A stretch of DNA of 64,000 nt, taken from NCBI GenBank assembly GCA_902801885.1, contig CADCJX010000004.1, positions 59,410 through 123,409 on the forward strand. Direction: 5' to 3'. A program made the translations under genes and the position numbers. Positions 40,630-59,064 of the stretch are shown here, in pieces. Source of the stretch: an uncultured Bacteroidia bacterium (lineage in GTDB: Bacteria > Bacteroidota > Bacteroidia > Bacteroidales > UBA932). The notes under the pieces were generated by a model. It was not told the origin of the DNA and did no database searches. It saw nothing but the letters and a program-made list of their open reading frames with translations. How positions within the stretch are numbered: the first letter of the stretch is position 1; every line of letters starts with the position of its first letter.

Positions 40630-42978
40630 ATGAGTATCCTCAAAGGTCTGGCCCTTGCGGCCCTCACATCAATAACCCTTTCCGTCTCACCAGCTTCTGG
40701 CAGTATTGCCCTCCCAGAAACCGTGGCCGCCCGTGGCCACGTGAACGGGAGGACCGCCGGCAGAGCCGGTGGTGGGACGAGGGCCTTCAGGCCCGAAGGT
40801 TTTAGGGAGGGCAATACTGCCGGAGTGAAGCGGAGATTGATCGACGATGTGAACGTGTTCGTGGGGACGGACGGGTTCGGGAATGTGTATCCTGGACCAC
40901 AGCTTCCTTATGGAGGCATCCAGATCAGCCCTGACTGCGACGACAAGGATTATGACTGTGCTGCCGGGTACAAATATTCAAAGCCCTATGTCCAGGGCTT
41001 CAGCCTGACGCACCTGAGCGGCACCGGAATCCCCGACCTTGGAGACTTCCTCTTCCTCCCCGGCATGGGCGACAGGATCGAACCTTCCAAACTGGATCAC
41101 AGCAAGGAAAGCGCCCACCCAGGATATTACGGGATTACTCTTGACAGCGGTGTGAAGGCTGAGATGACGGCTGCCATGCACTCCGGGATATTCAAGTTCA
41201 CCTATCCCGAGAAGGAAGGAGCCTATGTCATGATCGACCTCGACCATACACTATATTGGAATTGCGAGTGGTCCACCGTAAAACTGCTTGATGAACATAC
41301 CATCATCGGCAGCAAGGTCGTTGCCGGGTGGAATCCCAGCCGATATGTCTATTTTGCTGCAAAGTTTTCCGAACCCATAAAGGACTTCACCATCCTGCAG
41401 GACGGAGAGCCTGTGATCTACAACACCAAACGCTTCCGCAGCTCCCTGGAGGCCTGGGGCAAGAAACTCAAGGTCATCGTCCGCTACCAGGATGTCAAAG
41501 ACCTTCAGGTCAAGGTCGCGGTGTCGGGAGTCGGAACCGACGGAGCCCTTCTGAATCTTAAGGAACTTGACAGCAAAGACTTCGACACCGTCCTGGCAGA
41601 GGCCGAACAGACCTGGGAAAAGGCTCTGGGAACATATTCATTGGAAAGTGAGGACAAAGTCCTCCGCGAGACCTTCTACACCAGCGTCTACCGCACCATG
41701 CTCCATCCCTTCGTTTTCCAGGACACCGACGGCCGTTTCCGCGAGCACGACGGCACTATCGGCAAGGCCGAAGGCTTCACCAACGTCACGACTTTCTCCT
41801 TCTGGGACACGTTCAGGGCCTTCGAACCCTTGATGAACCTTGTCAACCGTCCCCTGCAGGCCGACATCGCCAACTCGATGCTCGCCCACTTCGACAAGAG
41901 CGCAGAACACATGCTCCCCTACTGGTCCTTCTACGGAGGTGAGACCTGGTGCATGATAGGCTACCATTCCTGCTCCGTCCTCGCCGACATGATCCTCAAG
42001 GACGTGCCCGGCTTTGACTACGAGAGGGCTTTCCAGGCGATGAAGACCACCGCCACCAACGCCCACTACGACTGCATCCCTGAATATACCTCCCTCGGCT
42101 ACGTCCCCTTCGACCTCGAGAAGGAAAGCGTCTCCAAGACCCTTGAATATGCCTACGACGACTGGTGCATCGCCCAAGTCGCCAAGAAACTGGGCCACGA
42201 GGAGGACTATAAGTTCTTCTTGAACAGGTCGATGAACTACAAGAACCTCATCGACCCCGAAACTGGCTACATGCGGGGCAAGGACTCCAAAGGCGCTTGG
42301 CGTACGCCATTCGCCCCGATCGCCTACCAAGGTCCCGGATCCGTCAACGGCTGGGGAGACATCACCGAAGGATTCACCATGCAGTACACCTGGAGCGTGT
42401 TCCATGATTTCGACGGATATGTCAAGATCGCTGGAAGGGACAGGCTCAAGAAATATCTCGACGAGCTTTTCACCATCGAGCTTCCCGAGGACATCCCTGG
42501 CGCCCACGACATCTGGGGACGCATCGGAGGCTACTGGCACGGAAATGAGCCCTGCCACCACGTGGCCTACCTTTATGATTATTTCGGAGAGCCTTGGAAC
42601 TGCCAGAAATGGGTCAGATACGTCGCCAAGAACTTCTACGGCAATGAGCCAGGATCCCTCAGCGGCAACGATGACTGCGGTCAGATGAGTGCCTGGTACC
42701 TGTTTAACTGCCTGGGATTCTATCCCTTCTGCCCGGGTGCTGACTGGTATTATGTCGGCTCGCCATGCGCCCCCGGAATGAGCATGACCCTATCGAACGG
42801 TAAGAAGATCGAGATGACAACCAAGGGATGGAGCGAGGATGCCGTTTACATCAAGGCCGCTTACCTAGACGGCAAAAAACTTGGCTCCCCCATTATCCGG
42901 TACGACCAGATTAAGGATGGAGCCAAGCTGCATTTCGATATGTCACGCAAACCCGTGAAGGGTGCGTTCAGGAAATGA
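40630..42978 (+). CDS. GH92 alpha-mannosidase carrying an in-frame palindromic insertion
   Basis: This is a 782-residue protein. The signal peptide covers about residues 1-23 (ALTSITLSVSPASG). Residues 24-64 are encoded by a GC-rich inverted-repeat element (40699-40821) and have no counterpart in the neighbouring GH92. The usual N-domain then starts DVNVFVGTDGFGNVYPGPQ. The catalytic landmarks are intact: GNEPCHH (Glu640; Cys replaces the more usual Ser) and GNDDCGQMSAW (Asp681/Asp682). It is expected to be a secreted exo-alpha-mannosidase with a linkage preference different from the first copy. Likely independently transcribed from 40592. Confidence 0.94.
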   Translation: MSILKGLALAALTSITLSVSPASGSIALPETVAARGHVNGRTAGRAGGGTRAFRPEGFREGNTAGVKRRLIDDVNVFVGTDGFGNVYPGPQLPYGGIQISPDCDDKDYDCAAGYKYSKPYVQGFSLTHLSGTGIPDLGDFLFLPGMGDRIEPSKLDHSKESAHPGYYGITLDSGVKAEMTAAMHSGIFKFTYPEKEGAYVMIDLDHTLYWNCEWSTVKLLDEHTIIGSKVVAGWNPSRYVYFAAKFSEPIKDFTILQDGEPVIYNTKRFRSSLEAWGKKLKVIVRYQDVKDLQVKVAVSGVGTDGALLNLKELDSKDFDTVLAEAEQTWEKALGTYSLESEDKVLRETFYTSVYRTMLHPFVFQDTDGRFREHDGTIGKAEGFTNVTTFSFWDTFRAFEPLMNLVNRPLQADIANSMLAHFDKSAEHMLPYWSFYGGETWCMIGYHSCSVLADMILKDVPGFDYERAFQAMKTTATNAHYDCIPEYTSLGYVPFDLEKESVSKTLEYAYDDWCIAQVAKKLGHEEDYKFFLNRSMNYKNLIDPETGYMRGKDSKGAWRTPFAPIAYQGPGSVNGWGDITEGFTMQYTWSVFHDFDGYVKIAGRDRLKKYLDELFTIELPEDIPGAHDIWGRIGGYWHGNEPCHHVAYLYDYFGEPWNCQKWVRYVAKNFYGNEPGSLSGNDDCGQMSAWYLFNCLGFYPFCPGADWYYVGSPCAPGMSMTLSNGKKIEMTTKGWSEDAVYIKAAYLDGKKLGSPIIRYDQIKDGAKLHFDMSRKPVKGAFRK
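40699..40821. repeat. In-frame palindromic element A within the second GH92 gene (123 bp, 41 codons)
   Basis: The ends are a perfect 17-bp inverted repeat: GGCAGTATTGCCCTCCC at 40699-40715 and its complement at 40805-40821, extended inward by imperfect AGAAACC/GGTTTTA. Inside are three smaller hairpins: GTGGCC (40723-40728) with GGCCAC (40735-40740), an 8-bp stem at 40754-40772 with an AGA loop, and GGGCC-TTCA-GGCCC at 40781-40794. Total length is an exact multiple of three with no stop in the coding frame. It encodes an Arg/Gly/Ala-rich peptide just after the signal peptide. Confidence 0.82.
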
Positions 42979-42981
42979 AGA

Positions 42982-43311
42982 TCAGCGGACGGTGACATCC
43001 GTTCCGGGAGAGTTTCTCAGGACGTTCACTAACTTCCGTTTCCCGACGGTGACTTTGCCGGTCGTGAAAGCTGGAAGATTATAAGACTTCATCAACTTCT
43101 TGTAGTATTCCTTGGGATTCTTCTGCGGAAGCAGGAAAGGTTTCGTGGCGTTTCCATCGGGATCCACGTGTGTGAAATACGGCTTGGTGTAAAGCCCGTC
43201 ATCCCTTCTGCTGCTGAAAACCAGACACTTCCCGTCGGCACTCCAAGTGTGGAAACTATCCACATCTTCTGAATTGACCCCCGCCATAGGGCCTTGGAGC
43301 CCCCTTAACAA
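42982..43311 (-). pseudogene. 5'-truncated relic of a PD40/TolB-like lipoprotein gene
   Basis: About 100 codons match the C-terminal end of the intact protein at 49846-51294: SFHTWSADGKCLVFSSRRDDGLY aligns to SYHSWSGNSRWIIWASRRLDGLY (landmarks S-x-H-x-W-S and ASRR/SSRR-x-DGLY), and KPFLLPQKN and LMKSYNLPAF align to KPFLMPQKS and LMKSYNVPEF. The propeller, CxxCH motif and signal peptide are missing; the frame opens only at a TTG. It lies 3 bases from the GH92 stop, convergent, and is followed by the promoter of the second SusC gene. Most likely a remnant left when that locus was inserted or rearranged. Confidence 0.75.
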
Positions 43312-43327
43312 GCGATTCTTGATGTGT

Positions 43328-43362
43328 TTTGTTGGATAATTATTCGAGTTTTTATAACTTTG
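43328..43362 (+). promoter_or_regulatory. Promoter of the second SusCD locus with a long leader
   Basis: TTTG (43328-43331), a 23-base spacer and TAACTTTG (43355-43362) fit the Bacteroidetes promoter. Transcription would start near 43369, giving a leader of about 170 bases before the SusC ATG at 43539. The leader is AT-rich, contains a 24-bp tandem duplication and shows no clear ribosome-binding site. Long leaders of this kind are candidate sites for post-transcriptional control. No ECF/FecR pair or other regulator gene sits beside this locus within the window. Confidence 0.6.
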
Positions 43363-43443
43363 TTTTATTATACCTCCCCTATCGCAAAAGGGAGAATGAC
43401 GATTTTGACAGTTTTTAAGGTTTTATGTGTTAAGGAATTAATA

Positions 43444-43491
43444 AGTGATATACCAATTAAGGTAATTAGTGATATACCAATTAAGGTAATT
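43444..43491. repeat. Perfect 24-bp tandem duplication in the SusC leader
   Basis: The unit AGTGATATACCAATTAAGGT plus AATT occurs twice back to back (43444-43467 and 43468-43491), with a partial related AATTAAC following. It lies in the transcribed leader of the second SusC gene. It may be simple slippage, or two copies of a binding site. Confidence 0.9.
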
Positions 43492-43538
43492 AACAATATT
43501 GAACCAATAGCAGCTAAATCCTTTTAACAATTACATTT

Positions 43539-46500
43539 ATGGGTAAACGAATCATTACGTTTTTGCTTGCGCTTCTATTTGTAGGTGCGCAGGTATTCGC
43601 TCAGAATTCGGTTACTGGTAAAGTGACCGATTCAAATGGCGAAGCCATTCCGGGCGCCAGTATTATGGTCAAAGGAACCAATACAGGCGTTATCACAGAC
43701 CTCGACGGTAACTTCCGCATCAATGTGAAAGCCAACGCAGAACTGGTCTTTAGCTCGATCGGTTACAAGACTACCACCGTGGCAGTCGGTAACCGTGGTG
43801 TAATCAATGTTATCCTGGAAGATGACACTCTCCTTCTGGATGATGTCGTCGTGGTCGGTTACGGTACCGCACGTCGTAAGGATCTCACAGGATCGCTTTC
43901 AGCTATCCAGTCAGAGACCATCGCGGCCCAGAACACATCCACTGTTTCCCGTATGCTCGAGGGTGCCGCTCCTGGTCTGCGTGTCGCCGCTACTGACGGT
44001 CAGCCCGGTTTCGATATGGGTATCCGTATCCGTGGTATCTCTTCCACTAAATCCGACGCTGCTTCAGCCCTCATCGTTATCGATGGTGTCGCAGCTCAAC
44101 CAGCCGCCGCTAACCAGAACGCGTTGGAGAACCCTCTGTCCCGCCTAAACCCTGAGGACATCGCTTCTGTGACCATTCTTAAGGATGCTGCCTCCACGGC
44201 GCTCTACGGATCCCGCGGTGCTAACGGTGTCGTCCTCATCACCACAAAGGCCGGTCAGGCCGGAAAGGCCCAGATCTCTTTCGAGAGCAGGGTCGGTTAC
44301 AACTTCGTCGGTCCCTACAATTCCGCTGAGATCGACAAAGCTTCTGACTACTACGAGTTCGCTTGGAGAAGTATCTACAACTCATATCGTTATGGTGTTG
44401 GCGGTACGGGTCTCCCCGGTGTCGGTGCCGACGATGTTCCTTACACCAATTTCAATAATCCGAACCACTCCGACGCTGAAGCAAGGCAGTTCGCCAGCGC
44501 ACACCTTTTCGACTACGTCGGAAGCGAGACTTCTTTCGAGGAGAACGGACTCGGTAACTGGATGGCTTACTCCGTGCCAGGAGCTGTCTACACTACCACC
44601 GGCGAGGGCAGCAAGGCCTCCTCTACCATGAGCGGCGCTTTTCTTGTGGGCACTGACGGCAAGATCAATCCCAACGCTAAACTCCTCTACAGCGAGAGCT
44701 ATCGCAACATCCTCATGAAGAAGGCTTTCCGCCAGGACTACAATATCTCCGCCCGCGGAGGTAACGACAAGATGCATTACTATCTCTCTCTTGGTTACCT
44801 CGACGAGCCTTCCTTCCTTGTAGCCTCAAGCTTCAAGCGTTACAGCGGCCGCGCCAATGTCGACGCCATGATCACCAACTGGCTGAAGGTCGGTGCTAAC
44901 GTTTCTTACGCCAACACCAACACCCGCACCATGGCTACCCGTTGGCAGAACCGTGGCGCCGGTGGTGCTTCCGGTAACACTATGTACTATGTCAAGATGT
45001 ATCCTCCGATCATCTCCGTTTATGAATATGACGCCAATGGCAACGTGAAACTGGACGAGAATGGCAACAAGGTTGTCGCCAAAGGCCCGACCTATTCACC
45101 CCTTGGTGACGGAAAGACTGTAGGAACGAACTTCAACCGCGACCTCCTGTGGGAGACCGAGACCAACCAGTCCACCTTCAACAACCAGACTTGGACACCT
45201 AAGGTCTTTGCAGAGGTCACCCTTCCTTACGGATTCAAATTCACGGGCAACTTCACAATGGAGGAATACACCACCCGTAACCTCCGTTACATGAACCATG
45301 AGGCCGGCCGTGGAGCTTCCAGAGGTGGTATGATGCTGCGCAAGATGAGCAGGACCGTCATGAACACCCAGCAGCTCCTGACCTGGAACCGCGAGTATGG
45401 CAAGCACCATTTCGACGCATTGGTCGGTCACGAGTATGAGGATCTCCACAGTGAGATTGTCCAGTATGCCTCAGCAGACGAGCTCCTTTCCGGATATGTC
45501 ATGCCTGGTAACTTCACGTCCCGTTTCAACAATATCAGCGGTTACGAGAACGACAAATGGCAGCTGGACGACTTCCGTCTCGAGTCCTATCTTGGACGTC
45601 TCAATTACATCTACGACGAGAAGTACTATCTCTCCGGTTCCTTCCGCCGTGACGGATCTTCCAAGTTCATCAAGGAGAACCGCTGGGGCAACTTCTGGTC
45701 TGTGGGTGCCGGTTGGAGAATCTCTTCCGAGCCCTGGATGGAGGGCACCAAGACCTGGCTGGACAATGCCAAGATCCGCGCCAGTTACGGTGTCACCGGT
45801 AACCAGAATGGCGTTAGCGAATATTATATCAATCCTACATGGTCATATGGCGTTTCCCGTTGGAAAGCAGTTTCAAACGGAACAGGCCAGGCCGAGGTCT
45901 TCAGCCTCACTTCTCCCGGACTTGTCGACACCGACATCACCTGGGAGCATGTCCACCAGTTCGACACCGGTCTCGATTTCACCCTCTTCAACAGCAGGAT
46001 TTCCGGTGCCATTGACTACTACAACAACCTCACCACGAACTCCTTGTACAGCCAGGCCGTCTCGCCGCTCGCAAACATGGCGAACACGACCCACACCCGT
46101 AACTGCGCCAAGCTCCGCAATACCGGTATAGAGTTCGAGCTCAGCAGCGACATCATCCGCAACAAGGACTTCAACTGGAACTTGAGCCTCAACCTCACCC
46201 ACTTCAGGACCACCCTCGTGGACGTTCCTGACAGTCAGCTTCCTTTCTGGGATCCCAAGACATCAGAGCTTCCTGAGGGGACTTGGACTGCGGCTTCCGA
46301 GACATGGGCAGCTACCGGTGGACAGAATGCCGGTCAGGGCAAGCTTTATCTCCGTGGAGAGGGCCGTGACATCTACAACCTCTATCTTTACAAATATGCT
46401 GGTGTAGATGAGAAATCCGGTCTTCCTATGTACTGGCACCATGTCACTTACGCTGATGTCAACGCTGACTCGAAGGGCAACTACGCTCACGGTGGCCGCT

Positions 46501-47126
46501 ATACAAGTTATAAGGAAGGCGATGACGTGAAGACTCTGGTCTCCGCCGACGCTTCCCAGTACGAGTATGGCTCCGCAACTCCTGACATCATGGGTGGTCT
46601 CACCTCCAGCTTCCGCTGGAAGAATTGGGATCTCAGCACTGTCTGGGCCTTCCAGCTCGGCGGTAAGTTCTTCTCCCGTGAGTTCGGTGAGATGATGTAC
46701 CGCACCAGCTCCCTCGCCGCTGATTGGAACAAGGGTGACAGCTGGGTCGCCAAAGAGACGGTCGGCGCCACATTCAACGAGTCTAATACGGGTGCCTACT
46801 TCCCGATGCAGTGGTGGGCCAACGGTCGTACCTGCCGTTACGACGGTGACACGATCGGTAGCTGGCAGTTCACGAACATGGCTCTCTTCAACGCTTCCTA
46901 CCTGCGTCTGAAGAACGTCACTCTCGGATATACCCTTCCCAAGAAGCTTACTGAGAAAGTTCATATCGGTGGTCTCCGCGCTTATGTGTCGGCTGACAAC
47001 CTCGTATTCTTCTCCGCCCACAAGGGCATCGATCCTTCTCTGTCAGCGGTCGGTGGTTACGATGTCGCCCAGTGCGTTTATCCGCAGATGGCGAATGTGA
47101 TCTTCGGAATCAAGCTTGATTTTTAA
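43539..47126 (+). CDS. SusC-like TonB-dependent outer-membrane glycan transporter (no STN domain)
   Basis: This is a 1195-residue protein with a signal peptide ending QVFAQN (about residue 22). A carboxypeptidase-regulatory-like domain (about 24-105, VTGKVTDSNGEAIPGASIMV) is followed by the DDVVVVGYGTARRKDLTGS segment, the plug (LIVIDGVA, then ILKDAASTALYGSRGANGV) and the barrel, ending VIFGIKLDF. It imports oligosaccharides with its SusD partner 18 bases downstream. Absence of STN means it does not signal through FecR, in contrast to the first SusC. Codon use (frequent GGT, GCT, CGT) differs from the surrounding enzymes and is typical of highly expressed genes. Confidence 0.97.
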   Translation: MGKRIITFLLALLFVGAQVFAQNSVTGKVTDSNGEAIPGASIMVKGTNTGVITDLDGNFRINVKANAELVFSSIGYKTTTVAVGNRGVINVILEDDTLLLDDVVVVGYGTARRKDLTGSLSAIQSETIAAQNTSTVSRMLEGAAPGLRVAATDGQPGFDMGIRIRGISSTKSDAASALIVIDGVAAQPAAANQNALENPLSRLNPEDIASVTILKDAASTALYGSRGANGVVLITTKAGQAGKAQISFESRVGYNFVGPYNSAEIDKASDYYEFAWRSIYNSYRYGVGGTGLPGVGADDVPYTNFNNPNHSDAEARQFASAHLFDYVGSETSFEENGLGNWMAYSVPGAVYTTTGEGSKASSTMSGAFLVGTDGKINPNAKLLYSESYRNILMKKAFRQDYNISARGGNDKMHYYLSLGYLDEPSFLVASSFKRYSGRANVDAMITNWLKVGANVSYANTNTRTMATRWQNRGAGGASGNTMYYVKMYPPIISVYEYDANGNVKLDENGNKVVAKGPTYSPLGDGKTVGTNFNRDLLWETETNQSTFNNQTWTPKVFAEVTLPYGFKFTGNFTMEEYTTRNLRYMNHEAGRGASRGGMMLRKMSRTVMNTQQLLTWNREYGKHHFDALVGHEYEDLHSEIVQYASADELLSGYVMPGNFTSRFNNISGYENDKWQLDDFRLESYLGRLNYIYDEKYYLSGSFRRDGSSKFIKENRWGNFWSVGAGWRISSEPWMEGTKTWLDNAKIRASYGVTGNQNGVSEYYINPTWSYGVSRWKAVSNGTGQAEVFSLTSPGLVDTDITWEHVHQFDTGLDFTLFNSRISGAIDYYNNLTTNSLYSQAVSPLANMANTTHTRNCAKLRNTGIEFELSSDIIRNKDFNWNLSLNLTHFRTTLVDVPDSQLPFWDPKTSELPEGTWTAASETWAATGGQNAGQGKLYLRGEGRDIYNLYLYKYAGVDEKSGLPMYWHHVTYADVNADSKGNYAHGGRYTSYKEGDDVKTLVSADASQYEYGSATPDIMGGLTSSFRWKNWDLSTVWAFQLGGKFFSREFGEMMYRTSSLAADWNKGDSWVAKETVGATFNESNTGAYFPMQWWANGRTCRYDGDTIGSWQFTNMALFNASYLRLKNVTLGYTLPKKLTEKVHIGGLRAYVSADNLVFFSAHKGIDPSLSAVGGYDVAQCVYPQMANVIFGIKLDF

Positions 47127-47144
47127 TTAATAAGACACAGAGAT

Positions 47145-48833
47145 ATGAAAACACATAAAATAATTTCTATTGCTGTTGCTCTTGGTCTTCTGGTTTCCTG
47201 CGGTGACCGCCTGAACGTCACCAACCCGAACAAGTTCACTGTCGAGGATATCAATGAGAATATCTTCCTGAGCGGTGACGAGTCGAAGATCAAACTCGCT
47301 CTTGAGGGTATGGCCAACACCATGCCTACTCAGATGATGGTGTACGACACCAAGCTGACAAAGGGCTACGGAAACCGTTGGTCAGCTGACATTACCCATA
47401 AGCTCGCCCATGACATGCTTATCGGTGATATCGTCTCCGGTCCTGACGCCGGTCACGCCGGTGTTTTCTCGAACTGGTATTCCGTGGCTAACGATTTCCC
47501 TTACTATCGTTACAACGCTGACGTTGTCGCCAATTACGCCAACTACATCTCAGCCTGTATCAAGATTTCCAACGCTATCAAGGTTATGCAGAACATCTCC
47601 ATTGAGACGATCGAGAAGGCCTCCGGCGCTACCCAGGCCATGCTGAAGGACTACAGGGCCCGCTGCCTCGTGGTTTACGCTCTCGGTTACATGGAACTCA
47701 TGGAGATCTACACCGACCTTACCGATCCTGAGTCAACGACAGCCAAGGGATGGCCGATCTACGAGAACTACGCCTACAACACTCCTGTCGCCCCGCTTAG
47801 CGTCAAAGAGACTTGGGACAGGATCATCTCCGATCTCCAGACAGCTGTCAAATACTTCAGCGAGTCAATAGGTTACACGCAGGGTAACACAGAGTCCGAG
47901 CTCTATGACATCGATCTTGGTGTCGCGCAGTTCCTCCTCGCCCGCGCCGCACTTGACTGCCACAGATGGGACATCGCCGCCACCGCGGCCAACGACATCG
48001 TCTCCAAGTATCCCAACTTCATTTCCGAAGATAATTGGGGTATGTCGAACGAGACTCTCACCAAGGTCGCCCAGCTAACTTCCAATAACGGCTTTGTTGA
48101 AGGCTTCAACTCAGACAAGAACGCGTTCTTCAACTTCAAAGTCAACCCCGAAGCCCTCTTCGGATGGGAGGCTTCCGAGTCTGTGGGTGCCAACGTGACG
48201 CGTAAGAGCGCTATTCCTTTCGTGATGGAGAACCCGCTGCTTAACGGGAATATGGAGTCCGCATGGCAGATCGACGCTGATCTTTACAACAAGATTCCCG
48301 ACGCCGACTTCCGTAAGGATCGCATCGCCAGCGCTGATGTCGCCTATCCTTTCTACACAGTCAACACTGTCGGTTCCGATACCACCTTCCACGCCGGAAT
48401 CGTGGTTCCGAAATACACCAACCTGAAGTTCGCCGCCACGGAGTCCAGGGACGGAAAGACCATCCATGACAACTCCACATGGCTCACCGATCTCCCTTAC
48501 TACCGTTCCTCCGCAGCTTACCTGATGCTCGCCGAGGCTTACGCCCAGCAGGGTAACACATCCAATGCCAAGGCCGCTCTGGACAAACTGCTCGCCGCCC
48601 GCACAAAGGCCGGTCAGCCCGCGATGACCAGCACAGGTAGCCTCGACGAAGTGAAACTCCAGTGGAGAATCGAGTTCTGGGGCGAAGGTGACTGGAACTT
48701 CCTGAACGCTAAGCGTTGGGGAGACATCTCCAACTACCGCAAGGGATCCAACCACTGGACCAAGAGTGCCAACCCCACTCTCATCTGGGAAGTCCCTGAG
48801 GAAGAGACTATCGGAAATCCTAACTGGAACTAG
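47145..48833 (+). CDS. SusD-like surface glycan-binding lipoprotein
   Basis: This is a 562-residue protein with lipobox LLVSCGDRL (Cys at about 19) followed by NVTNPNKFTVEDIN. TPR-like helices and SusD-type landmarks follow (AYLMLAEAYAQQGNT and the C-terminal QWRIEFWGEGDWNFLNAKRWGD, corresponding to the E-R-x-x-E/W-D-x-x-R-W region). It belongs to the more diverged SusD/RagB-2 type rather than the classical type of the first locus. It pairs with the SusC 18 bases upstream and is followed by a clear intrinsic terminator. Confidence 0.95.
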   Translation: MKTHKIISIAVALGLLVSCGDRLNVTNPNKFTVEDINENIFLSGDESKIKLALEGMANTMPTQMMVYDTKLTKGYGNRWSADITHKLAHDMLIGDIVSGPDAGHAGVFSNWYSVANDFPYYRYNADVVANYANYISACIKISNAIKVMQNISIETIEKASGATQAMLKDYRARCLVVYALGYMELMEIYTDLTDPESTTAKGWPIYENYAYNTPVAPLSVKETWDRIISDLQTAVKYFSESIGYTQGNTESELYDIDLGVAQFLLARAALDCHRWDIAATAANDIVSKYPNFISEDNWGMSNETLTKVAQLTSNNGFVEGFNSDKNAFFNFKVNPEALFGWEASESVGANVTRKSAIPFVMENPLLNGNMESAWQIDADLYNKIPDADFRKDRIASADVAYPFYTVNTVGSDTTFHAGIVVPKYTNLKFAATESRDGKTIHDNSTWLTDLPYYRSSAAYLMLAEAYAQQGNTSNAKAALDKLLAARTKAGQPAMTSTGSLDEVKLQWRIEFWGEGDWNFLNAKRWGDISNYRKGSNHWTKSANPTLIWEVPEEETIGNPNWN

Positions 48834-48856
48834 TATTACTATTCCATAAAGAAATG

Positions 48857-48890
48857 GGGGACGGGTTCACCAGAATCCGTCCCCTTTTTT
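48857..48890 (+). terminator. Intrinsic terminator after the second SusCD pair
   Basis: GGGGACGGGTT (48857-48867) pairs with AATCCGTCCCC (48874-48884) over 11 bp including one G-U pair, with a 6-base loop, followed directly by TTTTTT (48885-48890). It separates SusCD transcription from the genes beyond, typical of glycan loci in which SusCD needs higher expression than the enzymes. Confidence 0.85.
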
Positions 48891-48891
48891 C

Positions 48892-48899
48892 TATATTTG
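48892..48899 (+). promoter_or_regulatory. -7 promoter box after the SusCD terminator
   Basis: TATATTTG (TAnnTTTG) lies one base after the terminator T-tract and 26 bases before the ATG at 48926. The -33 position falls inside the terminator stem and does not match. It may restart transcription for the lipoprotein/PD40/GH28 genes. Confidence 0.45.
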
Positions 48900-48925
48900 C
48901 CCAAGAATAGGTTCGCCGGAACGTT

Positions 48926-51294: not shown

Positions 51295-51313
51295 CAACAA
51301 ATAATAACCAATC

Positions 51314-52774
51314 ATGAAACGAATCCTGATCCTCCTCACAGCCGCTCTGATCGCTATTTCCGCCAGCGCCCAAGAAAAGATCCATCAGGCATCCTCTTTC
51401 GGAATAAAATCCGACGGAGTCACCCTCAACACCCGCTCGATCCAGGCCGCGATCGATTTTATCAGCAGCCATGGTGGCGGTGTCTTGGAAATATCTGTAG
51501 GACGCTATCTTACGGGTAGCATATTCATGAAATCAAATGTAGAGCTACGGCTTCTTGAAGGCGCTGTCCTGGTCGGCTCTACCAATCCTTACGACTACGA
51601 CATGGTCGAGGGTTATTATGGACTTCTTCTGGCTAAAGGACAGAAAAACATCTCCGTAAAAGGAAAGGGAGTGATCGATGGCCGTGGTTTCGACTGCGCC
51701 CTGAATTTCCTGAACCAAGTACATTTGGGATTCCTTGAAGACACTACTAAAAACGACAGGGTCACCAAAAGGCCTAAACTGATATATTTCAGGGAATGCG
51801 AGAATGTCGCGATTGAAGGCGTGAACCTGCGGAATGCGGCCGAGTGGACCCTGGTCACGGATCAGTGCGAGAACCTCACCATCAGCGGGATCCTGATGGA
51901 CAGCAAGAACTACTGGAACAACGATGGACTGGACATCGTGGACTGCCGTCATGTCCTTATAAAAGATTCATTCATAGATGCTTCCGATGATGCGATTTGC
52001 TTTAAGTCCCACTCCTCAGAGCATCTTTGCGAGGACATCGAGGTCCGGAACTGCGTCGCTCGCTCCAGCGCTAGCGCCTTCAAGTTCGGAACCGTATCAA
52101 GAGGAGGATTCAAGAATATCCGGATAATAAACAACAAGGTGTTTGACACCCACCGCTCAGCCATTACCATCCAGTCTGTGGACGGGGGCGAGATCGAGAA
52201 TATCCTTGTGGACGGCCTTGAGGCGGTCAACACCAGCAACGCGATCTACCTCCGCACCGGCATCCGCTGGAACAACGGGAAGAAGGGATACCTTAGGAAT
52301 ATCACCCTCTCCAACATCAAGGTGGAGGTTCCGGCGACGAAGGCTGACGCAGGCTACAGCTACGAGGGTCCGATAGAGGACTTACCGAGGAATATTTCCC
52401 CGTCCGGAATCGTCGGCATCCCCGAACTGCCGATAGAGAATGTCATATTGAAGACTGTTGAGATTATCTACCCTGGTGGCGGGAATAAGCTCTACGCCTT
52501 CCGCGGAACCTCGGACGAGGAACTGGACAGCATCCCGGAGATGAAGGATGTCTATCCGGAATTCTCTCAGTTCAAGGAACTTCCCTCATGGGGACTGTTT
52601 ATTCGTCACGCCAAGGGGATAACCCTTGACAACGTAAGGCTCGTGGCCGGAGCAAAGGACTACCGCCCGGCGATTGTGGCTGACGATGTCCAGGGACTCG
52701 AGATAAAGAACCTCAAGACCGAAGAGCCTTCCAGCAAAGGAAAGAAACAGGTTGTTAAGAGAAACGTCCGGTAA
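51314..52774 (+). CDS. GH28-like right-handed beta-helix protein, secreted
   Basis: This is a 486-residue protein with a signal peptide ending SASAQ (about residue 20). The start ASSFGIKSDGVTLNTRSIQAAID is the pectate-lyase-fold opening of GH28 enzymes (landmark FGIKSDG). WNNDGLDI (about 201-207) stands in for the polygalacturonase N-T-D motif, and SDDAICFKS carries the Asp-Asp pair (Asp225/Asp226). The canonical G-H-G is replaced by FKFGTVSRGG, and no RIK motif is obvious. It is therefore a divergent GH28-type protein: exo-acting pectin or rhamnogalacturonan hydrolysis is possible, but activity cannot be taken for granted. It lies 19 bases after the PD40 gene. Confidence 0.75.
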   Translation: MKRILILLTAALIAISASAQEKIHQASSFGIKSDGVTLNTRSIQAAIDFISSHGGGVLEISVGRYLTGSIFMKSNVELRLLEGAVLVGSTNPYDYDMVEGYYGLLLAKGQKNISVKGKGVIDGRGFDCALNFLNQVHLGFLEDTTKNDRVTKRPKLIYFRECENVAIEGVNLRNAAEWTLVTDQCENLTISGILMDSKNYWNNDGLDIVDCRHVLIKDSFIDASDDAICFKSHSSEHLCEDIEVRNCVARSSASAFKFGTVSRGGFKNIRIINNKVFDTHRSAITIQSVDGGEIENILVDGLEAVNTSNAIYLRTGIRWNNGKKGYLRNITLSNIKVEVPATKADAGYSYEGPIEDLPRNISPSGIVGIPELPIENVILKTVEIIYPGGGNKLYAFRGTSDEELDSIPEMKDVYPEFSQFKELPSWGLFIRHAKGITLDNVRLVAGAKDYRPAIVADDVQGLEIKNLKTEEPSSKGKKQVVKRNVR

Positions 52775-52777
52775 ATG

Positions 52778-52845
52778 TTTGTATTAATTGGTTTTTTACG
52801 TATTTTTGCGTAACGTAAAACAACGTAACGTAAAATAGCGTAAAA
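52778..52845 (+). promoter_or_regulatory. Promoter plus 15-bp-period direct-repeat operator of the AAA ATPase gene
   Basis: A full-consensus promoter, TTTG (52778-52781), 19-base spacer, TATTTTTG (52801-52808), is followed immediately by CGTAACGTAAAA at 52809-52820 and again at 52824-52835, and by CGTAAAA at 52839-52845, a 15-base period. ACGTAAAA (52813-52820) is also an inverted match to TTTTACGT (52794-52801). The repeats span the expected transcription start and run into the ATG at 52845. This is the layout of a repressor operator, unlike anything else in the locus. Confidence 0.7.
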
Positions 52846-53975
52846 TGAAAACCCTAATCCGGAACCCTTTCGTGCTAACGCCCTATGTCCCTGAAGAGTA
52901 CTTCTGCGACAGGGAAAAGGAGACCGCACAACTCTGCAAGCATATTCTGAACGGCAGGAACGTGGCTCTTTTCGCCAACCGCCGCTTAGGGAAAACAGGC
53001 CTTATCAGGCATTGCTTCCAAAAGAAAGAGATTAAAGAGAGTTTCCATACATTCCTTGTTGATATCTATTCGGCGGGGAGCCTTAAAGAAATGGCAAGCT
53101 TGTTTGCGAAGGCGGTGTTCTCCTCATCCGGCGTATCCGGACTCAGGGACAAGTTGCTCAAAGGACTCAAATCTATAACTCCTGTGATCGGTTACAATGA
53201 GCTGACATCCTCGTTCTCCGTATCCGCAGGGATAAGAGACATTCCTGAACCAGAGCGAACCATTGAGGAAATTCTTTCCGTATTGGACTCCATGAAGAGA
53301 CCTGTCGTGTTAGCCTTGGACGAGTTCCAGAGAATCAGGGACTTCAAGGAGAATAATACTGAAGCATATCTCCGGACTGTCTTCCAGAAATGCGAAAACA
53401 TACAGTTCATCTATACAGGAAGCATCGGGCACTCGATGAACAATATCTTCAAGTCCCCAAGCAAACCATTCTACAACAGCGCGGTGATGATGACCCTTGA
53501 CGTGATAGACCGAGATGTTTATAAAGACTTCGCCTTGAGGATGTTCCGGCAATATGGGAAAGACATTGAGGAGAATCTTATCTATAAGTGTTATGACTAT
53601 TTCTCAGGAGTAACTTGGTATAACCAACTCCTCATGAATGAGGCATTCTCCCAGACAGAAAAGGGAGATAAAATTAAGGAAAAAGATTTCGAGTCAATCT
53701 ATGACGCCATAATCGCCCAACAAGCGTTTTCATATCAAGAGCTGTTCTCCAGGTTCTCCGAGAAGCAGAAGGCCTTACTGTTGGCGATCGCCCATGAGGG
53801 GAAAGAAGGGTCGGAGATAACTTCAAAAGAATTCATGAATAAATATGGTATAGGGCCAGCCAGCTCGATCCAGACGGCATGCTCGGCTTTAAAGAAAAAC
53901 GGCTTCATTTCCAACAACGGAAACCGCAAGGTGATAACGGATTTGATATTCAGGGATTGGATCAGAAACAATTAG
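52845..53975 (+). CDS. AAA/STAND-like ATPase of the archaeal-ATPase (ATPase_2) type
   Basis: This is a 376-residue cytosolic protein without signal peptide. NRRLGKTG (about residues 45-52, Lys50) is a Walker A loop of the short N-R-R-x-G-K-T type, and VLALDEFQRI (near 155-163) is Walker B. FIYTGSIGHSMNNIF resembles sensor 1. After about residue 270 there is a winged-helix-like tail (FSEKQKALLLAIA, SSIQTACSALKKNGFI). Such ATPases are scattered, often multi-copy, in Bacteroidetes, with unknown roles. It has its own promoter and repeat operator, lower GC and no secretion signal, so it looks like an insert between GH28 and GH31 rather than part of glycan breakdown. Confidence 0.8.
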   Translation: MKTLIRNPFVLTPYVPEEYFCDREKETAQLCKHILNGRNVALFANRRLGKTGLIRHCFQKKEIKESFHTFLVDIYSAGSLKEMASLFAKAVFSSSGVSGLRDKLLKGLKSITPVIGYNELTSSFSVSAGIRDIPEPERTIEEILSVLDSMKRPVVLALDEFQRIRDFKENNTEAYLRTVFQKCENIQFIYTGSIGHSMNNIFKSPSKPFYNSAVMMTLDVIDRDVYKDFALRMFRQYGKDIEENLIYKCYDYFSGVTWYNQLLMNEAFSQTEKGDKIKEKDFESIYDAIIAQQAFSYQELFSRFSEKQKALLLAIAHEGKEGSEITSKEFMNKYGIGPASSIQTACSALKKNGFISNNGNRKVITDLIFRDWIRNN

Positions 53976-53986
53976 AATTCAGCGAT

Positions 53987-56518
53987 ATGAGACGATTATT
54001 GACCGCATTGGCCTTCCTGGCCACATCTTTTGTCAGTTACGCAGGACAGCCGCTCGAGCCGGCGTTTTCAGCCGGAGCGGCTGCCGAGCTTAGGCCGTAC
54101 TCAGCCGCAGCGGAGCGAGGATGGACTCGGCCGGGCTCGGACAGCCGTCCGGCAACAACGACTGCATCGGAAAGCAGATCCTTCACTACGTTCAGGATGA
54201 CATCTGCCAGGATGACATTAGCTGACGGACACAACGTTCTGGTGGACGTGTGTGACGAGGGAATATTCAGGGTACGCATCAGCCCCAGGAAGGAATTCGA
54301 AGAATCCCTGATGGAACGCTACGGCTGCATCAAGACCGACTGGGCCCCCGTCAAGGCTACTGAAAGCAATAAGGGCAGCGAATGGACCGTGACCACGACA
54401 GGATATTCATTGACTGTCAACAAGAAGACGGGAGTGATTTCCCTCAAGGACTCCAAGGGTGGCTCCGTCATCCGTGAGATCAAGCTCCTCGACAACAATA
54501 ACAAACTCTGCGACAACCTCCGCGAGACCATCAACAAGAAATGGGAAGCCCTCAACGTCGTGAGCAACGGCGGAGGCATCATCGGCGACGACAAGGAATT
54601 CGCCAAGATGGACAAAAGGGAGATCACTGGAGCGATGAAGATCTGCACTATCTCGATCCGAATGGAGGATGGCGAGAGGTTCTACGGCGGAGGCAGCACC
54701 AGCCGCGACCACATCCAGCACAGGGGCGAGCTCCTAAGGATGTGGACGACCTACCAGCACACTGAGATCCCGATGCCCTTCATGATGAGCTCCAGGGGAT
54801 GGGGAATATATGACAACACGACCCGCAAGAGTTTCTTTGACGTGGGCAGCATCCAGAAGGACCTGTTCAACATCGTCAATTCTTACGACGAAGCTGACTT
54901 CTTCCTGATGGCCGGAAAGGATATGCCCGCTGTCCTCAACGCCTACACCACAGTGACCGGCCGCACCTATGTGCTTCCCAAATGGGCCTACGGACTCTGC
55001 TTCGGCCCCAACATGCGCGAGGAGCAGTTCGACATCCTCCACGATGCCGCCATGTTCCGACAGATTGATGTTCCCTGCGACGTTTTCTGGCTCGAGCCTC
55101 AGTGGATGGGCAAGCGTTACGACTTCTCGACCAAGAAGACTTGGAACTACGATCGATTCTCCCCTGAACCCTACTGGGTCCAAGACCAGTACCCCAAGCA
55201 GCTCCATCACAGGCTCTTCATCGGAAAGCTCCGCTCGATGGGCTTCCACCTTGGCCTCTGGCTCTGCGAGGAATACGACCTCAGCCTAGTGGAAGAGGAC
55301 CTGATAGCCCTTCGTGAGGGCCGCGACACTTCCGGTCAGGAGCACTGGATGGACCACCTGAAGAACTTCATGGACCAGGGTGTCGAAGGCTTCAAGCTCG
55401 ATCCTGCCCGTACCATCGACAACCATCCCGACTGGCCTTACTACAATGGCAGCACCGACGCAGTGATGCACAACCTCAACCAGGTCCTGCTGCCCAAGCA
55501 AATGGCTCAGCTCGGGAGGAACTACAACAACAAGCGCACCTGGCATCACTACTGCGGCGGCTGGTCGGGCACACAGCATTGGACGGCCTCTACATCCGGC
55601 GACAACGGCGGTGGAAAGACAGCCCTCTACGACCAGCTGAACCTCGGCATGAGCGGCTTCCTCAACACCTCCTGCGACGTGATGAGCGTTCCGCGCGACC
55701 TTGAGATGCCCTCGCTCCACTTCGGTCTTTTCCTCCCATGGGTCCAGATCAACAGCTGGTTCTCGATGATGCAGCCGTTCTACTATGACAAGCCCGAGCA
55801 GGATATCTACCGCTTCTACGTCAAACTGCGCTATTCCCTGGCCCCGTACATCTATTCAATGGCCCTCGGCGCAACCCAGGACGGCATGCCTATAGTCCGC
55901 TCGATGCCACTTACCTTCCCCGAAGACCGCAAGTGCGACGACATGACCTACCAGTACATGTTCGGTCCATGGTATTGCGTGGGAATATTCACTAACGAAA
56001 TCTACCTTCCTGCCGGCACATGGACCGATGCCTGGACCGGAGAAAGGATTGTCAGCAAGGGCGAGACCTTCACCCGTGAATATCCTGCCGACCGCGCCGG
56101 ACTGCTGTTCATCCGCGACGGAGCCATTATCCCCACCCAGGGAGACGTTTCCTACATCGGCACCCGCCCGTTCGAGAAGATTACCCTGAATGTTTATCCT
56201 CACGGAGACTCCCAGTTCACCCTCATGGACGACGACGGTGAAACTTACGGTTACGAGAAGGGCGCCATAGCCAAGACCCTCGTGGAATGCCATGAGAAGG
56301 GCGGCGCTTCCAAGATCATCGTTAATCCGGTTGCCGGAAGCTACGAAGGCATGCCCGGCACGAGGGAATATTCATTCGCCGTCCAGAACGACGGCAAGGC
56401 ATCCTCGGTGCTTGTCGGCGGTAAGGAATTGAAGGACTGGACCTATGAGGGTGGCATGATCCGTTTTTCCCTTGACCCTGTCTCCGTCTCCGAAAAAATC
56501 ACCATCGATATACTGTAA
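53987..56518 (+). CDS. GH31 family glycosidase (alpha-xylosidase/alpha-glucosidase type) with in-frame repeat insertion
   Basis: Read from the ATG at 53987 (843 residues), because RRLLTALAFLATSFVSYA is a signal peptide; an in-frame ATG at 53879 lies inside the ATPase gene. Residues 20-78 come from a palindrome-rich element (54044-54219). The N-terminal beta-sandwich and GH31 barrel follow: FWLEPQWMGKRYDF, GFKLDPAR (nucleophile Asp472) and SGDNGGGKT (acid/base Asp539). C-terminal beta domains complete the enzyme. The family includes alpha-xylosidases that trim xyloglucan, which would suit the adjacent GH3, GH95 and GH43; specificity is not read directly. It starts 11 bases after the ATPase stop. 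Confidence 0.92.
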   Translation: MRRLLTALAFLATSFVSYAGQPLEPAFSAGAAAELRPYSAAAERGWTRPGSDSRPATTTASESRSFTTFRMTSARMTLADGHNVLVDVCDEGIFRVRISPRKEFEESLMERYGCIKTDWAPVKATESNKGSEWTVTTTGYSLTVNKKTGVISLKDSKGGSVIREIKLLDNNNKLCDNLRETINKKWEALNVVSNGGGIIGDDKEFAKMDKREITGAMKICTISIRMEDGERFYGGGSTSRDHIQHRGELLRMWTTYQHTEIPMPFMMSSRGWGIYDNTTRKSFFDVGSIQKDLFNIVNSYDEADFFLMAGKDMPAVLNAYTTVTGRTYVLPKWAYGLCFGPNMREEQFDILHDAAMFRQIDVPCDVFWLEPQWMGKRYDFSTKKTWNYDRFSPEPYWVQDQYPKQLHHRLFIGKLRSMGFHLGLWLCEEYDLSLVEEDLIALREGRDTSGQEHWMDHLKNFMDQGVEGFKLDPARTIDNHPDWPYYNGSTDAVMHNLNQVLLPKQMAQLGRNYNNKRTWHHYCGGWSGTQHWTASTSGDNGGGKTALYDQLNLGMSGFLNTSCDVMSVPRDLEMPSLHFGLFLPWVQINSWFSMMQPFYYDKPEQDIYRFYVKLRYSLAPYIYSMALGATQDGMPIVRSMPLTFPEDRKCDDMTYQYMFGPWYCVGIFTNEIYLPAGTWTDAWTGERIVSKGETFTREYPADRAGLLFIRDGAIIPTQGDVSYIGTRPFEKITLNVYPHGDSQFTLMDDDGETYGYEKGAIAKTLVECHEKGGASKIIVNPVAGSYEGMPGTREYSFAVQNDGKASSVLVGGKELKDWTYEGGMIRFSLDPVSVSEKITIDIL
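54044..54219. repeat. In-frame palindrome-rich element B within the GH31 gene
   Basis: CAGCCGCTC (54047-54055) and GAGCGGCTG (54075-54083) form a perfect 9-bp stem enclosing CCGGC/GCCGG. CCGAGC (54084-54089) pairs with GCTCGG (54135-54140). GGACAGCCG occurs directly repeated at 54044-54052 and 54139-54147. The 3' part has ATCCT (54178-54182) and AGGAT (54194-54198) around TCACTACGTTC, and AGGATGACAT twice (54195-54204, 54210-54219). The frame stays open and codes for an Ala/Arg/Ser/Thr-rich peptide directly after the signal peptide. Exact borders are uncertain; it may be two abutting elements. Confidence 0.7.
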
Positions 56519-56658
56519 TAACACTCACCACTAAAAACTTGCTGGTACAGAAATAATTGTCAATCAATCGAATATCCTATCGGACGGTATAAAAAAAGCG
56601 ACCGTTAAATCATGGAACATATTGAATATTATTTACATACATACCAGCACATATTGGA

Positions 56659-59064
56659 ATGAAGAAACTAGCGATCTGCTTATTAACGGTTATTTCAATA
56701 GCATCCTGCGAAAAGGGCGACTGGCGGGATGCGTCGCTGCCGGCTGCCAGCAGGGCTGAACTTCTGCTTAAGGAAATGACGCTGGAGGAGAAGGTCGGGC
56801 AGATGTGCCAGTACGTCGCCCCCTGCTACGTTCCTCCTGGCCAGGGTTCCCCCTACAAAAACATAGACGCCACCGACGAAAATCTCGGCAACAAGGACCT
56901 TGCGGACAAGATCCGCCGCGGAGAAGTCGGATCCTTCCTGCACTGCATGACCACCAAGGAAGCCATTGCCCTGCAGGAATTGGTAAAGGAGAGCAGGCTG
57001 GGCATTCCGCTGCTTATAGGAATAGACGCCATCCACGGCAATGCCCTTATAGAGGGTTGCACGATTTATCCCACAAACATCAACATGGCATCGACCTTTG
57101 ATCCTGAACTTATGGAAAAGATTGGGGCCGAAACAGCTTTGGAAATGCGTCAGAAGGGTCTCTACTGGACCTTTGCACCCAACCTTGACGTGGCGCGCGA
57201 CGCCCGCTGGGGCCGCATGGGTGAGACTTACGGCGAGGATCCTTTCCTTGTGACCGAGATGGGAAAGCACTCCATCTTGGGTCTTCAGGGCCCTGACAGG
57301 AACTTCGACGAAGGCCATGTGATCGCCTGCGCCAAGCATCTGATTGCGGGAGGAGAACCTTTCGGTGGCCTGAATGCTGCCCCAATGGATGTGTCGGAAA
57401 GACAGTTAAGGGAGATCTATCTGCCTCCTTTCGTCGCTGCAGTTGAAGACGCCCATGTCGGAACGGTCATGGCCGCCCACAACGAAGTTAACGGAATCCC
57501 CTGCCACGGCAACTCATGGCTGCTGAAAGACCTGCTTAGGGACGAACTCGGTTTCGACGGGTTCGTGGTGAGCGACTGGATGGACATCGAGAGGCTCCAT
57601 GCCATGCATCATTGGGCACCGGATTCGACAGAGGCTTTCGTGCGTTCGGTAGAGGCCGGAATCGACATGCACATGCAGGGTGACAATTATTTCGAAGCAG
57701 TGATCGAGGCCGTGAAGTCGGGAAGGATTCCGATGAAGAGGATCGACGAGGCTGCCGGGAAGATCCTGGAGATGAAATTCGCTGTCGGCCTGTTCGAGGC
57801 CCCCCTGCCTTCCCTTGAACCCCTTGAGAATGCCGCCGAGCACCGTCAGACTGCCCTTCAGGCCGCCCGCGAGGGAATTGTTCTCCTGAAGAATAACGGA
57901 GTGCTGCCTTTGTCTCCTTATGGCGGTATTACCAACTCCGGCGGCTCGACCGCCTCGCTACGCGAGGCCCCACCGCTCGCTTCGCAAAGCGAAGCTCCGG
58001 TCCCCCCTCTTAACGTGCCGAGGGTGGCAGTGGTCTCGCCATCCGGACTGGCAAATCCCGCCATTCCTGGCGAAAGAACTGCCGTCAGGCGGATCTTTCT
58101 GACGGGGCCGAATGCTGACAGTCAGACGATACTGGGAGACTGGGCGGCGCCTCAGCCGGACAGCCTGGTGATGACGGTCCTGGACGGCTTGAAAGCTGAG
58201 TTCCCTGGAGCTACGATCGACACGATGTGCTTCGGAGGAATGATCTCCAACGTGGATGCCAAAGGCATCGCCGTGGCCCGTCACAAGGCATCGGCGGCCG
58301 ATGTGTGCATAGTCGTTGCAGGTGAGAACTCGCAAAGATATTCAGCCTTCGGCAGGACCTGCGGCGAGAACTGTGACCGCGACGATCTCGACCTCCCAGG
58401 GATGCAGGAAGAACTCCTCGAGGCCATCGCCTCTACAGGAAAACCTACGATACTCGTGCTCATGACCGGAAGGGCCAATTCTATCGTTTGGGCCAAGGAC
58501 AATGTGGATGCCATTCTCAATGTCTGGGAGCCTGGTCAGATGGGCGGTCAGGCCATAGCAGAGGTCATATCCGGCAAGGTCAATCCGTCCGGCAAACTGC
58601 CTGTGACGATGCCCCGCAGCGTAGGCCAGGTCCCTACCGTCTACAACCATAAGCACTCACAGTACTCCCGCCAGTTCGCAACCAACGAGACCGGTCCCCT
58701 CTGGCCCTTCGGCTTCGGACTGAGTTACAGCAACTTCAAGTATTCAGCACCGGAGTTGAACGATTATTCTGTTTCAATTACTGTCACCAACGAAGGGCCG
58801 TACGATGGTGCCGAAGTGGTGCAGCTGTACATCAGGGATGAATATGCCTCCGTGACCCGCCCCGTCAAGGAACTGAAAGCCTTCAAACGCATATTCCTGA
58901 AAAACGGCGAAAGCCAGGAGGTTTCTTTTGAAATTACCCCCGACATGCTCAAATGCTTCGGTGCCGACAACCGCTGGTCCGTAGAACCCGGCGACTTCAC
59001 CATCATGGTCGGCTCCTCATCCGCAGACGAAAACCTTCAATGCATCACACTAACTGTTGATTAG
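56659..59064 (+). CDS. GH3 family beta-glycosidase lipoprotein with in-frame repeat insertion in the interdomain linker
   Basis: This is an 801-residue protein with lipobox SIASCEKGD (Cys at about 17). The GH3 N-terminal barrel has IDAIHGNA, ACAKHLIAGGEP and VVSDWMDIE (nucleophile Asp306). The linker reaches KNNGVLPL (about 411-418), where residues 419-476 are a foreign-looking stretch (57913-58086). The (alpha/beta)6 domain resumes at RRIFLTGPNADS, and a fibronectin-like C-terminal domain ends the protein. Activity is probably beta-glucosidase or beta-xylosidase. The 140-base gap upstream (56519-56658) has TGCTGGTA (56540-56547) and its complement (56643-56650) but no clear promoter. Confidence 0.93.
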   Translation: MKKLAICLLTVISIASCEKGDWRDASLPAASRAELLLKEMTLEEKVGQMCQYVAPCYVPPGQGSPYKNIDATDENLGNKDLADKIRRGEVGSFLHCMTTKEAIALQELVKESRLGIPLLIGIDAIHGNALIEGCTIYPTNINMASTFDPELMEKIGAETALEMRQKGLYWTFAPNLDVARDARWGRMGETYGEDPFLVTEMGKHSILGLQGPDRNFDEGHVIACAKHLIAGGEPFGGLNAAPMDVSERQLREIYLPPFVAAVEDAHVGTVMAAHNEVNGIPCHGNSWLLKDLLRDELGFDGFVVSDWMDIERLHAMHHWAPDSTEAFVRSVEAGIDMHMQGDNYFEAVIEAVKSGRIPMKRIDEAAGKILEMKFAVGLFEAPLPSLEPLENAAEHRQTALQAAREGIVLLKNNGVLPLSPYGGITNSGGSTASLREAPPLASQSEAPVPPLNVPRVAVVSPSGLANPAIPGERTAVRRIFLTGPNADSQTILGDWAAPQPDSLVMTVLDGLKAEFPGATIDTMCFGGMISNVDAKGIAVARHKASAADVCIVVAGENSQRYSAFGRTCGENCDRDDLDLPGMQEELLEAIASTGKPTILVLMTGRANSIVWAKDNVDAILNVWEPGQMGGQAIAEVISGKVNPSGKLPVTMPRSVGQVPTVYNHKHSQYSRQFATNETGPLWPFGFGLSYSNFKYSAPELNDYSVSITVTNEGPYDGAEVVQLYIRDEYASVTRPVKELKAFKRIFLKNGESQEVSFEITPDMLKCFGADNRWSVEPGDFTIMVGSSSADENLQCITLTVD
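57913..58086. repeat. In-frame palindrome-rich element C within the GH3 gene
   Basis: Three hairpins follow one another: GGCGG-ctcga-CCGCC (57940-57954), CCTCGC-TAC-GCGAGG (57953-57967) and GCTTCGC-AAA-GCGAAGC (57979-57995). Together with flanking sequence they encode about 58 residues rich in Pro, Ala, Ser and Gly (ASLREAPPLASQSEAPVPP is the core). GH3 relatives join LPL directly to the next strand within a few residues. The frame is preserved. Borders are estimated from where recognisable GH3 sequence stops and restarts. Confidence 0.78.

Follow-up and report, generated by a model that had tools for sequence, protein, structure and literature searches.

Protein-coding palindromes are known mainly from Rickettsia. 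As outlined in PMC10969869, RPEs are palindromes of about 150 bp, encoding a conserved peptide, that a wide variety of unrelated genes carry in frame, metabolic ones often among them. Intragenic REPs (GTAG/CGTC) are presented in part of PMC3733652 as palindromic repeats located in repair and RNA-metabolism genes, in one case at nearly the same position in species related to each other. For the Bacteroidetes, an extract of PMC6006769 reports subclasses of TnpAREP, one of them with atypical structures. Template switching between imperfect inverted repeats homogenises the arms and inverts the spacer, according to the relevant part of PMC8604942. Long inverted repeats translated within functional proteins are described for Nematomorpha mitochondria in an excerpt of PMC6649704.

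Set against these descriptions, the palindromes that we call family A also sit in frame in unrelated genes, as RPEs do, and have a conserved reading frame, 72 of the 79 phased copies using two element frames. They differ from RPEs in belonging to another phylum, in having arms that are specific to each locus with the core alone common to loci, and in being read in both orientations, in six pairs between the same arms. Family A resembles the REP-RAYT system in being palindromic and intragenic and in that a Y1/HUH transposase gene is present in the genome, but its copies are about three to six times longer with a multi-hairpin core, and, whereas classic REP pairs flank the transposase gene, family A gave no match at 34 Y1 loci. 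The arm homogenisation and spacer inversion attributed to template switching at coding inverted repeats are mirrored in family A, although that partial account concerns short yeast repeats and the present case is a dispersed repeat family. Like the Nematomorpha palindromes, family A would be translated within functional proteins; in the Nematomorpha excerpt, however, both arms encode conserved protein regions, whereas the arms of family A are extra sequence. Unlike MITEs, family A has terminal repeats that are not common to its copies, with an outer-arm identity of 0.56, which is background. As in invertons, both orientations occur at one locus, a finding from comparisons between species in which 39 of 96 pairs differ in orientation and 6 of these keep the same arms. 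The arms of family A are not common to loci. No report of family A in this phylum was found in the open-licence literature. RPEs and intragenic REPs are the kinds of element that come nearest, and family A is distinguished by its combination of locus-specific arms, a common core and open frames in both orientations.

Three palindromic elements in glycosidase genes

The window, that is, the whole stretch of 64,000 nucleotides that was analysed (G000:C4:59410-123409), belongs to a genome of 2.46 Mb in 31 contigs (G000). The original prediction was that three glycosidase genes lying within 19 kb each carry a different translated palindrome. Inspection of the open reading frames and inverted repeats confirmed three palindromes, all in phase and stop-free, in genes of the GH92, GH31 and GH3 families. 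The GH92 gene (40630..42978, + strand; PF07971 with E 8e-155, and PF17678) hosts E1 at 40696..40824 (+ strand, core forward), placed in frame directly behind the signal-peptide-like start. The arms of E1 detected by the inverted repeat search (40696-40722 and 40798-40824) are 27 nt each and 89% complementary. The GH31 gene (53987..56518, + strand; PF01055, PF17137 and others) has a probable start at 53987, read from the sequence, within an ORF that opens at 53879. It hosts E2 in frame at 54071..54153 (+ strand), in which a conserved core of ~40 bp is flanked by variable arms and of which BLAST detected copies elsewhere in the genome. On its 3' side E2 is adjoined, inside the open frame, by a short repeat (54175..54201, + strand) that also has copies elsewhere, seen as six partial BLAST matches (L015, L016, L018-L021), and a further inverted repeat lies beside E2 at 54038-54092. 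With these two neighbours, the N-terminal insert of GH31 is a repeat cluster.

The GH3 gene (56659..59064, + strand; PF00933, PF01915 and PF14310) hosts E3 in frame at 57920..58064 (- strand, core reversed relative to the gene), supported by its covariance-model match and its fold. This insert is located not behind a signal peptide but between the two main GH3 domains, at about residues 421-476; the alignment with the best solved GH3 relative covers residues 22-425 and 507-793.

BLAST searches of the own genome gave 3, 18 and 23 matches for E1, E2 and E3, respectively, the query being counted; two of the 3 matches of E1 are partial and six of the 18 of E2 cover the short neighbouring repeat only. 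Chance palindromes were ruled out by these copies, by pairing statistics and by covariance-model matches. The covariance model R1, built from 28 copies of family A, matched E1 at G000:C4:100108-100232 (40699-40823 of the window; 61 bits, E 1.5e-15) and E3 at G000:C4:117335-117464 (57926-58055 of the window; 125 bits, E 3.7e-36). E1 and E3 are thus members of one family of predicted structure, family A, and E2 represents a second one, family B, so that the anticipated difference between the three elements holds for E2 but not between E1 and E3. Eleven copies of family B were recovered with a pattern of the E2 core at the loci of the E2 BLAST matches. Their arms are variable too, and 9 of the 11 copies lie in two frames, +0 and -1.

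Core and arms of family A

The repeats of family A are ~125-160 bp long and GC-rich (0.55-0.76), with a conserved core of about 75-80 bp predicted to form three hairpins. In E1 and E3 the core has a hairpin of five pairs, whose loop resembles GGCACGTTAA, followed by two others. The five-pair stem co-varies among copies (CCCTC/GAGGG, CCCGT/ACGGG, CCCGC/GCGGG). The predicted peptide of a family A insert includes the stretch GGTGAERSEASGGAERSEA. In the own genome, R1 gave 31 matches at E<=0.01, of which 28 were above 40 bits; the weakest ones, in DsbD (27.7 bits), at L093 (30.3) and at C14:46991 (24.1), may be partial or spurious. No match to Rfam was obtained over the window at the gathering score, and among 15 loci searched at E<=1 there was one weak CRISPR-repeat match, outside the element (L005:882-937). 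A known RNA family over the elements was thereby ruled out for the window and these 15 loci.

The long arms pair with each other yet differ between loci. In the alignment of 28 copies, the arm helix has 20 pairs, 19 of which show two-sided changes, and over the whole structure 79.3% of cells are paired versus 38.8-51.4% with slid partners. Across seven genomes, the pairing of a copy's own arms beats the 95th percentile of foreign arms in 122 of 124 copies. Among 242 pairs of copies with a core identity of at least 0.93 and unrelated flanks, the outer arms have a median identity of 0.56, which is the background level, and only 2 pairs have outer arms more than 0.7 identical on both sides. Copies at orthologous sites often have arms in common, with concerted changes. 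In 26 pairs hand-picked from 96, one of which (L076/L208) has a shifted arm, we counted 41 two-sided arm changes against 9.6 expected for independent arms, 33 of the 41 leading from pair to pair; without the shifted-arm pair the numbers are 37 and 8.2.

Taxonomic distribution

Family A was matched in 85 of 101 genomes of the genus. In an order-wide sample it was matched in 4 of 198 genomes. Besides the own genome these are a member of another genus in the family, with 4 copies, and members of two further families, with 14 copies and 1 copy; the one additional genome of the own genus listed in that sample had no family A match. The 14 matches in another family of the order (L449, from G278) are lower-scoring and may reflect horizontal spread. 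A search of genome contigs with the core pattern retrieved at least 112 stretches. Among the matches listed (80 records), all are titled Bacteroidales or Bacteroidia and many name a ruminant stomach compartment; the host bacterium is probably from a ruminant gut.

Position of the copies and their host genes

We assembled 124 copies, made of 30 own-genome loci (from the 31 matches) and 94 copies from six relatives of the genus. The latter are among the matches listed for these six genomes, not all their copies, and exclude those at the GH3 site. A copy was called intragenic when the reading frame stayed open for at least 45 codons on both sides of it. By this definition 83 copies fall inside genes and 36 between them; the other 5 are ambiguous, E1 being one of these because it is close to the start codon of its gene. 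Codon usage, learned from the window, agrees for most copies and is weak or contrary for some of those called intragenic from open frames. As about 95% of the window is coding, 83 intragenic copies out of 124 represent no excess of family A in genes, which goes against the expected enrichment in coding over intergenic DNA.

Besides the GH3 and GH92 genes, the own-genome hosts encode cardiolipin synthase, a MATE transporter, ArgC, IspH, RecQ, an ArgD-like aminotransferase, an RsmF-like methyltransferase, MiaA, dihydrolipoyl acyltransferase, a periplasmic binding protein, FtsK, a mannose-6-phosphate isomerase-like protein, a GltD-like protein (Fer4_20/Pyr_redox), DnaX, a MiaB-like radical-SAM protein and DsbD (a weak match), the names GltD, MiaB and ArgD being assigned from domains or from matches below the curated cut-off. 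The copies are not peculiar to glycosidases, as IspH, ArgC, MiaA, DnaX and FtsK illustrate. Nor are they restricted to secreted enzymes: only three of the 18 own-genome hosts (the 17 intragenic by open frame, plus GH92) belong to plainly extracytoplasmic families, namely GH3, GH92 and the periplasmic binding protein, DsbD being part periplasmic. All remaining hosts are cytoplasmic or membrane housekeeping proteins.

An inner arm of the AACCACTGCC-like type, a coarse pattern label, occurs in 28 of 36 intergenic versus 15 of 83 intragenic copies. According to codon usage, 5 of the 11 intergenic copies of the own genome (L076, L078, L080, L085 and L086) lie between convergent genes, some with A/T tracts at their feet, resembling bidirectional terminators.

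Reading frame

Among the phased intragenic copies (n=79), 35 are in element frame +0 and 37 in frame -1, in the opposite orientation. These two frames, one per orientation, account for the 72 copies mentioned above and the other 7 use different ones, in agreement with the frame bias that had been predicted. Each insert would add about 40-60 residues to its host protein. Lengths modulo 3 (classes 1/0/2) are distributed as 57/20/6 inside genes versus 10/16/10 outside.

That the 83 intragenic copies are free of stops is circular, since an open frame was used to define them; the orthologous stretches described below offer an independent test, and there the frame is kept, with no stop between the flanks, in 54 of the 54 stretches for which both flanks were found.

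Both +0 and -1 can be read through without a stop in 68 of the 79 intragenic copies, versus 14 of 34 intergenic ones (p=4e-6), as expected from the suggestion that the frames are built to be translatable. Among reverse-oriented copies, 37 of 42 have no stop in +0, the frame they do not use, versus 17 of 34 intergenic copies; among forward copies, 31 of 37 have none in their unused frame, -1, which is similar to the 28 of 34 counted between genes. Selection on the unused frame is therefore indicated from one side, as only the reverse copies exceed the intergenic level, and stops are rare in the elements anyway owing to their high GC content.

Orthologous sites in related species

Ten host genes, chosen from the 17 of the own genome, were traced in six relatives, with G083 added for one gene. 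Of 55 orthologous stretches collected, family A was matched in 19, in one case partially; all site comparisons are between species of the genus. For every one of the ten host genes there is at least one relative in which family A gave no match, and for RecQ this holds for all five relatives. Sites without family A show apparent remnants, other palindromes or short linkers. The element turnover foreseen by the original prediction is thus observed between species, with sites empty, filled or filled otherwise.

At L414 (IspH, G042) and L407 (ArgD, G049) we noted an apparent single arm of family A ending at the core boundary; these arm remnants are possible in-frame deletion scars. At L411, L422, L425-L427, L433, L440 and L443, the same sites in relatives hold long inserts that do not belong to family A, in genes for ArgD-like, MiaA, dihydrolipoyl acyltransferase, GltD-like and MATE proteins. 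The GH3 site has extra residues, differing in sequence, in 9 of 19 same-genus homologs, family A being matched in six of these, and none in the remaining homologs. Toward the C-terminal part of GH3, family A is matched at a second site in three relatives, and a further match lies just upstream of the GH3 gene in G042; the matches concerned are L048:3565-3685, L049:3601-3730, L050:1361-1484 and L050:3587-3701.

The core has opposite orientations in 39 of 96 orthologous-site pairs; as species and sites recur among the pairs, these are not independent observations. In 6 of these 39, for instance MiaA L074/L207 and GH3 L048/L050, both outer arms are at least 0.7 identical, and at the sequence level these six pairs are direct evidence of flipping in place. 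The arms of the other 33 have diverged, so that these pairs could also stem from separate insertions in opposite directions. In 73 and 81 of the 96 pairs, the core resembles that of the best copy in the same genome more closely than that of the ortholog.

Sites without a family A match were also examined for hairpins. In MiaA of G090 there is just an 8-bp hairpin, which corresponds to the outer arms seen in the filled allele. Over the 36 sites without a match, 5 ranked in the top 5% for stems versus 1.8 expected, two of the five (L411 and L426) holding other long inserts, and the median stem rank was 0.42; a hairpin at the empty site is unsupported as a general rule.

Candidate transposases

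Y1_Tnp and family A occur together in 75 of the 101 genomes, with elements only in 10, Y1 only in 3 and neither in 13 (Fisher 5.6e-8, genomes being counted without phylogenetic correction). Among the 48 good genomes the same classes number 39, 4, 0 and 5. The own genome has two PF01797 matches over the cut-off, one of them within an ORF of 287 aa in which NHVH and YVFNNP can be read. Searching the 34 collected Y1 gene loci with R1 at E up to 0.1 returned 0 family A matches. The Y1 gene of G072 has a small hairpin on either side (L336:796-833 and 1962-1998), the two having a sequence in common, with no family A match. IS110 was rejected as the mover, as it was found in 18 of 85 genomes with elements and 4 of 16 without (p=0.75), which is no association. 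A resident single-strand transposase of the Y1 (TnpAREP/RAYT) type is only suggested as the agent that spreads family A.

Origin and maintenance of the elements

Family A probably consists of protein-coding palindromes similar to those of Rickettsia and held in frame by selection, in which template switching matches the arms and flips the core. Insertion would be roughly blind to genes and out-of-frame copies would be purged. During replication, template switching between the arms would copy one arm onto the other, letting arms drift and stay complementary, and the same process would invert the core. Arms could then be locus-specific and complementary without selection on RNA, and, if flipping recurs as we propose, the copies surviving in genes would be those open in both orientations. 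Both signatures of template switching, arm homogenisation and core inversion, are present in family A. Cores would be replaced within the genome, either by conversion or by fresh insertion, and the Y1 transposase may, with weaker grounds, be responsible for the spread. No benefit to the host would be necessary.

A benefit was at the centre of the original prediction, in which a mobile system diversifies the linkers or loops of secreted enzymes. Three glycosidase copies within 19 kb and a GH3 site whose extra residues vary in sequence in 9 of 19 homologs, six with a family A match, speak for it; with hosts that are mostly cytoplasmic or membrane housekeeping proteins, 36 of 124 copies intergenic and no excess in genes, diversification is unsupported and we hold it very improbable that the elements are kept for this purpose. 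Selection on structured mRNA, the arms and core regulating stability or translation within operons, would account for the strong covariation and for the terminator-like intergenic copies (5 of 11 in the own genome between convergent genes). The model-fitted alignments also showed an excess of G-U over A-C on the element strand (78 versus 44), but in an alignment that was not model-fitted this excess was not significant, with 49 versus 36 on the element strand (p 0.19) and, for arm mismatches on the mRNA strand, 38 versus 47. The two core orientations are moreover nearly equal in the two main frames (35 versus 37), and Rfam gave no match over the elements in the window and the 15 loci. We rejected mRNA structure as the selected trait; such a role, also raised in the original prediction, is unsupported and appears quite improbable.

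The compact multi-hairpin core, its conserved loop and the housekeeping hosts would suit inserts that are self-spliced out or bypassed by the ribosome, in the manner of introns or bypass elements. Neither process needs an open frame, but all 54 orthologous stretches with both flanks found preserve it, and the length classes differ inside and outside genes (57/20/6 versus 10/16/10). As no intron family of Rfam was matched over the window and the 15 loci either, we give splicing or bypass hardly any credence. That the arms represent an old small-hairpin target and only the core is mobile is an unlikely reading, albeit compatible with parts of the one we prefer: the 8-bp hairpin in MiaA of G090 and the 5 of 36 sites with strong stems (two holding other inserts) point towards it, but with a median stem rank of 0.42 most sites have no unusual hairpin. 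It is also conceivable, if rather doubtful, that a mobile core, recognised by its fold and not by its sequence, moves between locus-specific palindromic docking sites in coding genes and has been selected to be translatable both ways, which would provide the essential proteins of one genus with switchable linkers.

On the preferred reading of selected, template-switching palindromes, protein-coding palindromes would be frequent in a large Bacteroidales genus, in housekeeping genes. As many related species can be compared, the origin, loss and orientation change of the inserts, and the selection on their frame, become directly measurable. The family would offer an example from nature of proteins that template switching may have a part in shaping. 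There is a warning for annotation too, since a linker of variable, low-complexity sequence in these genomes may consist of repeat DNA.
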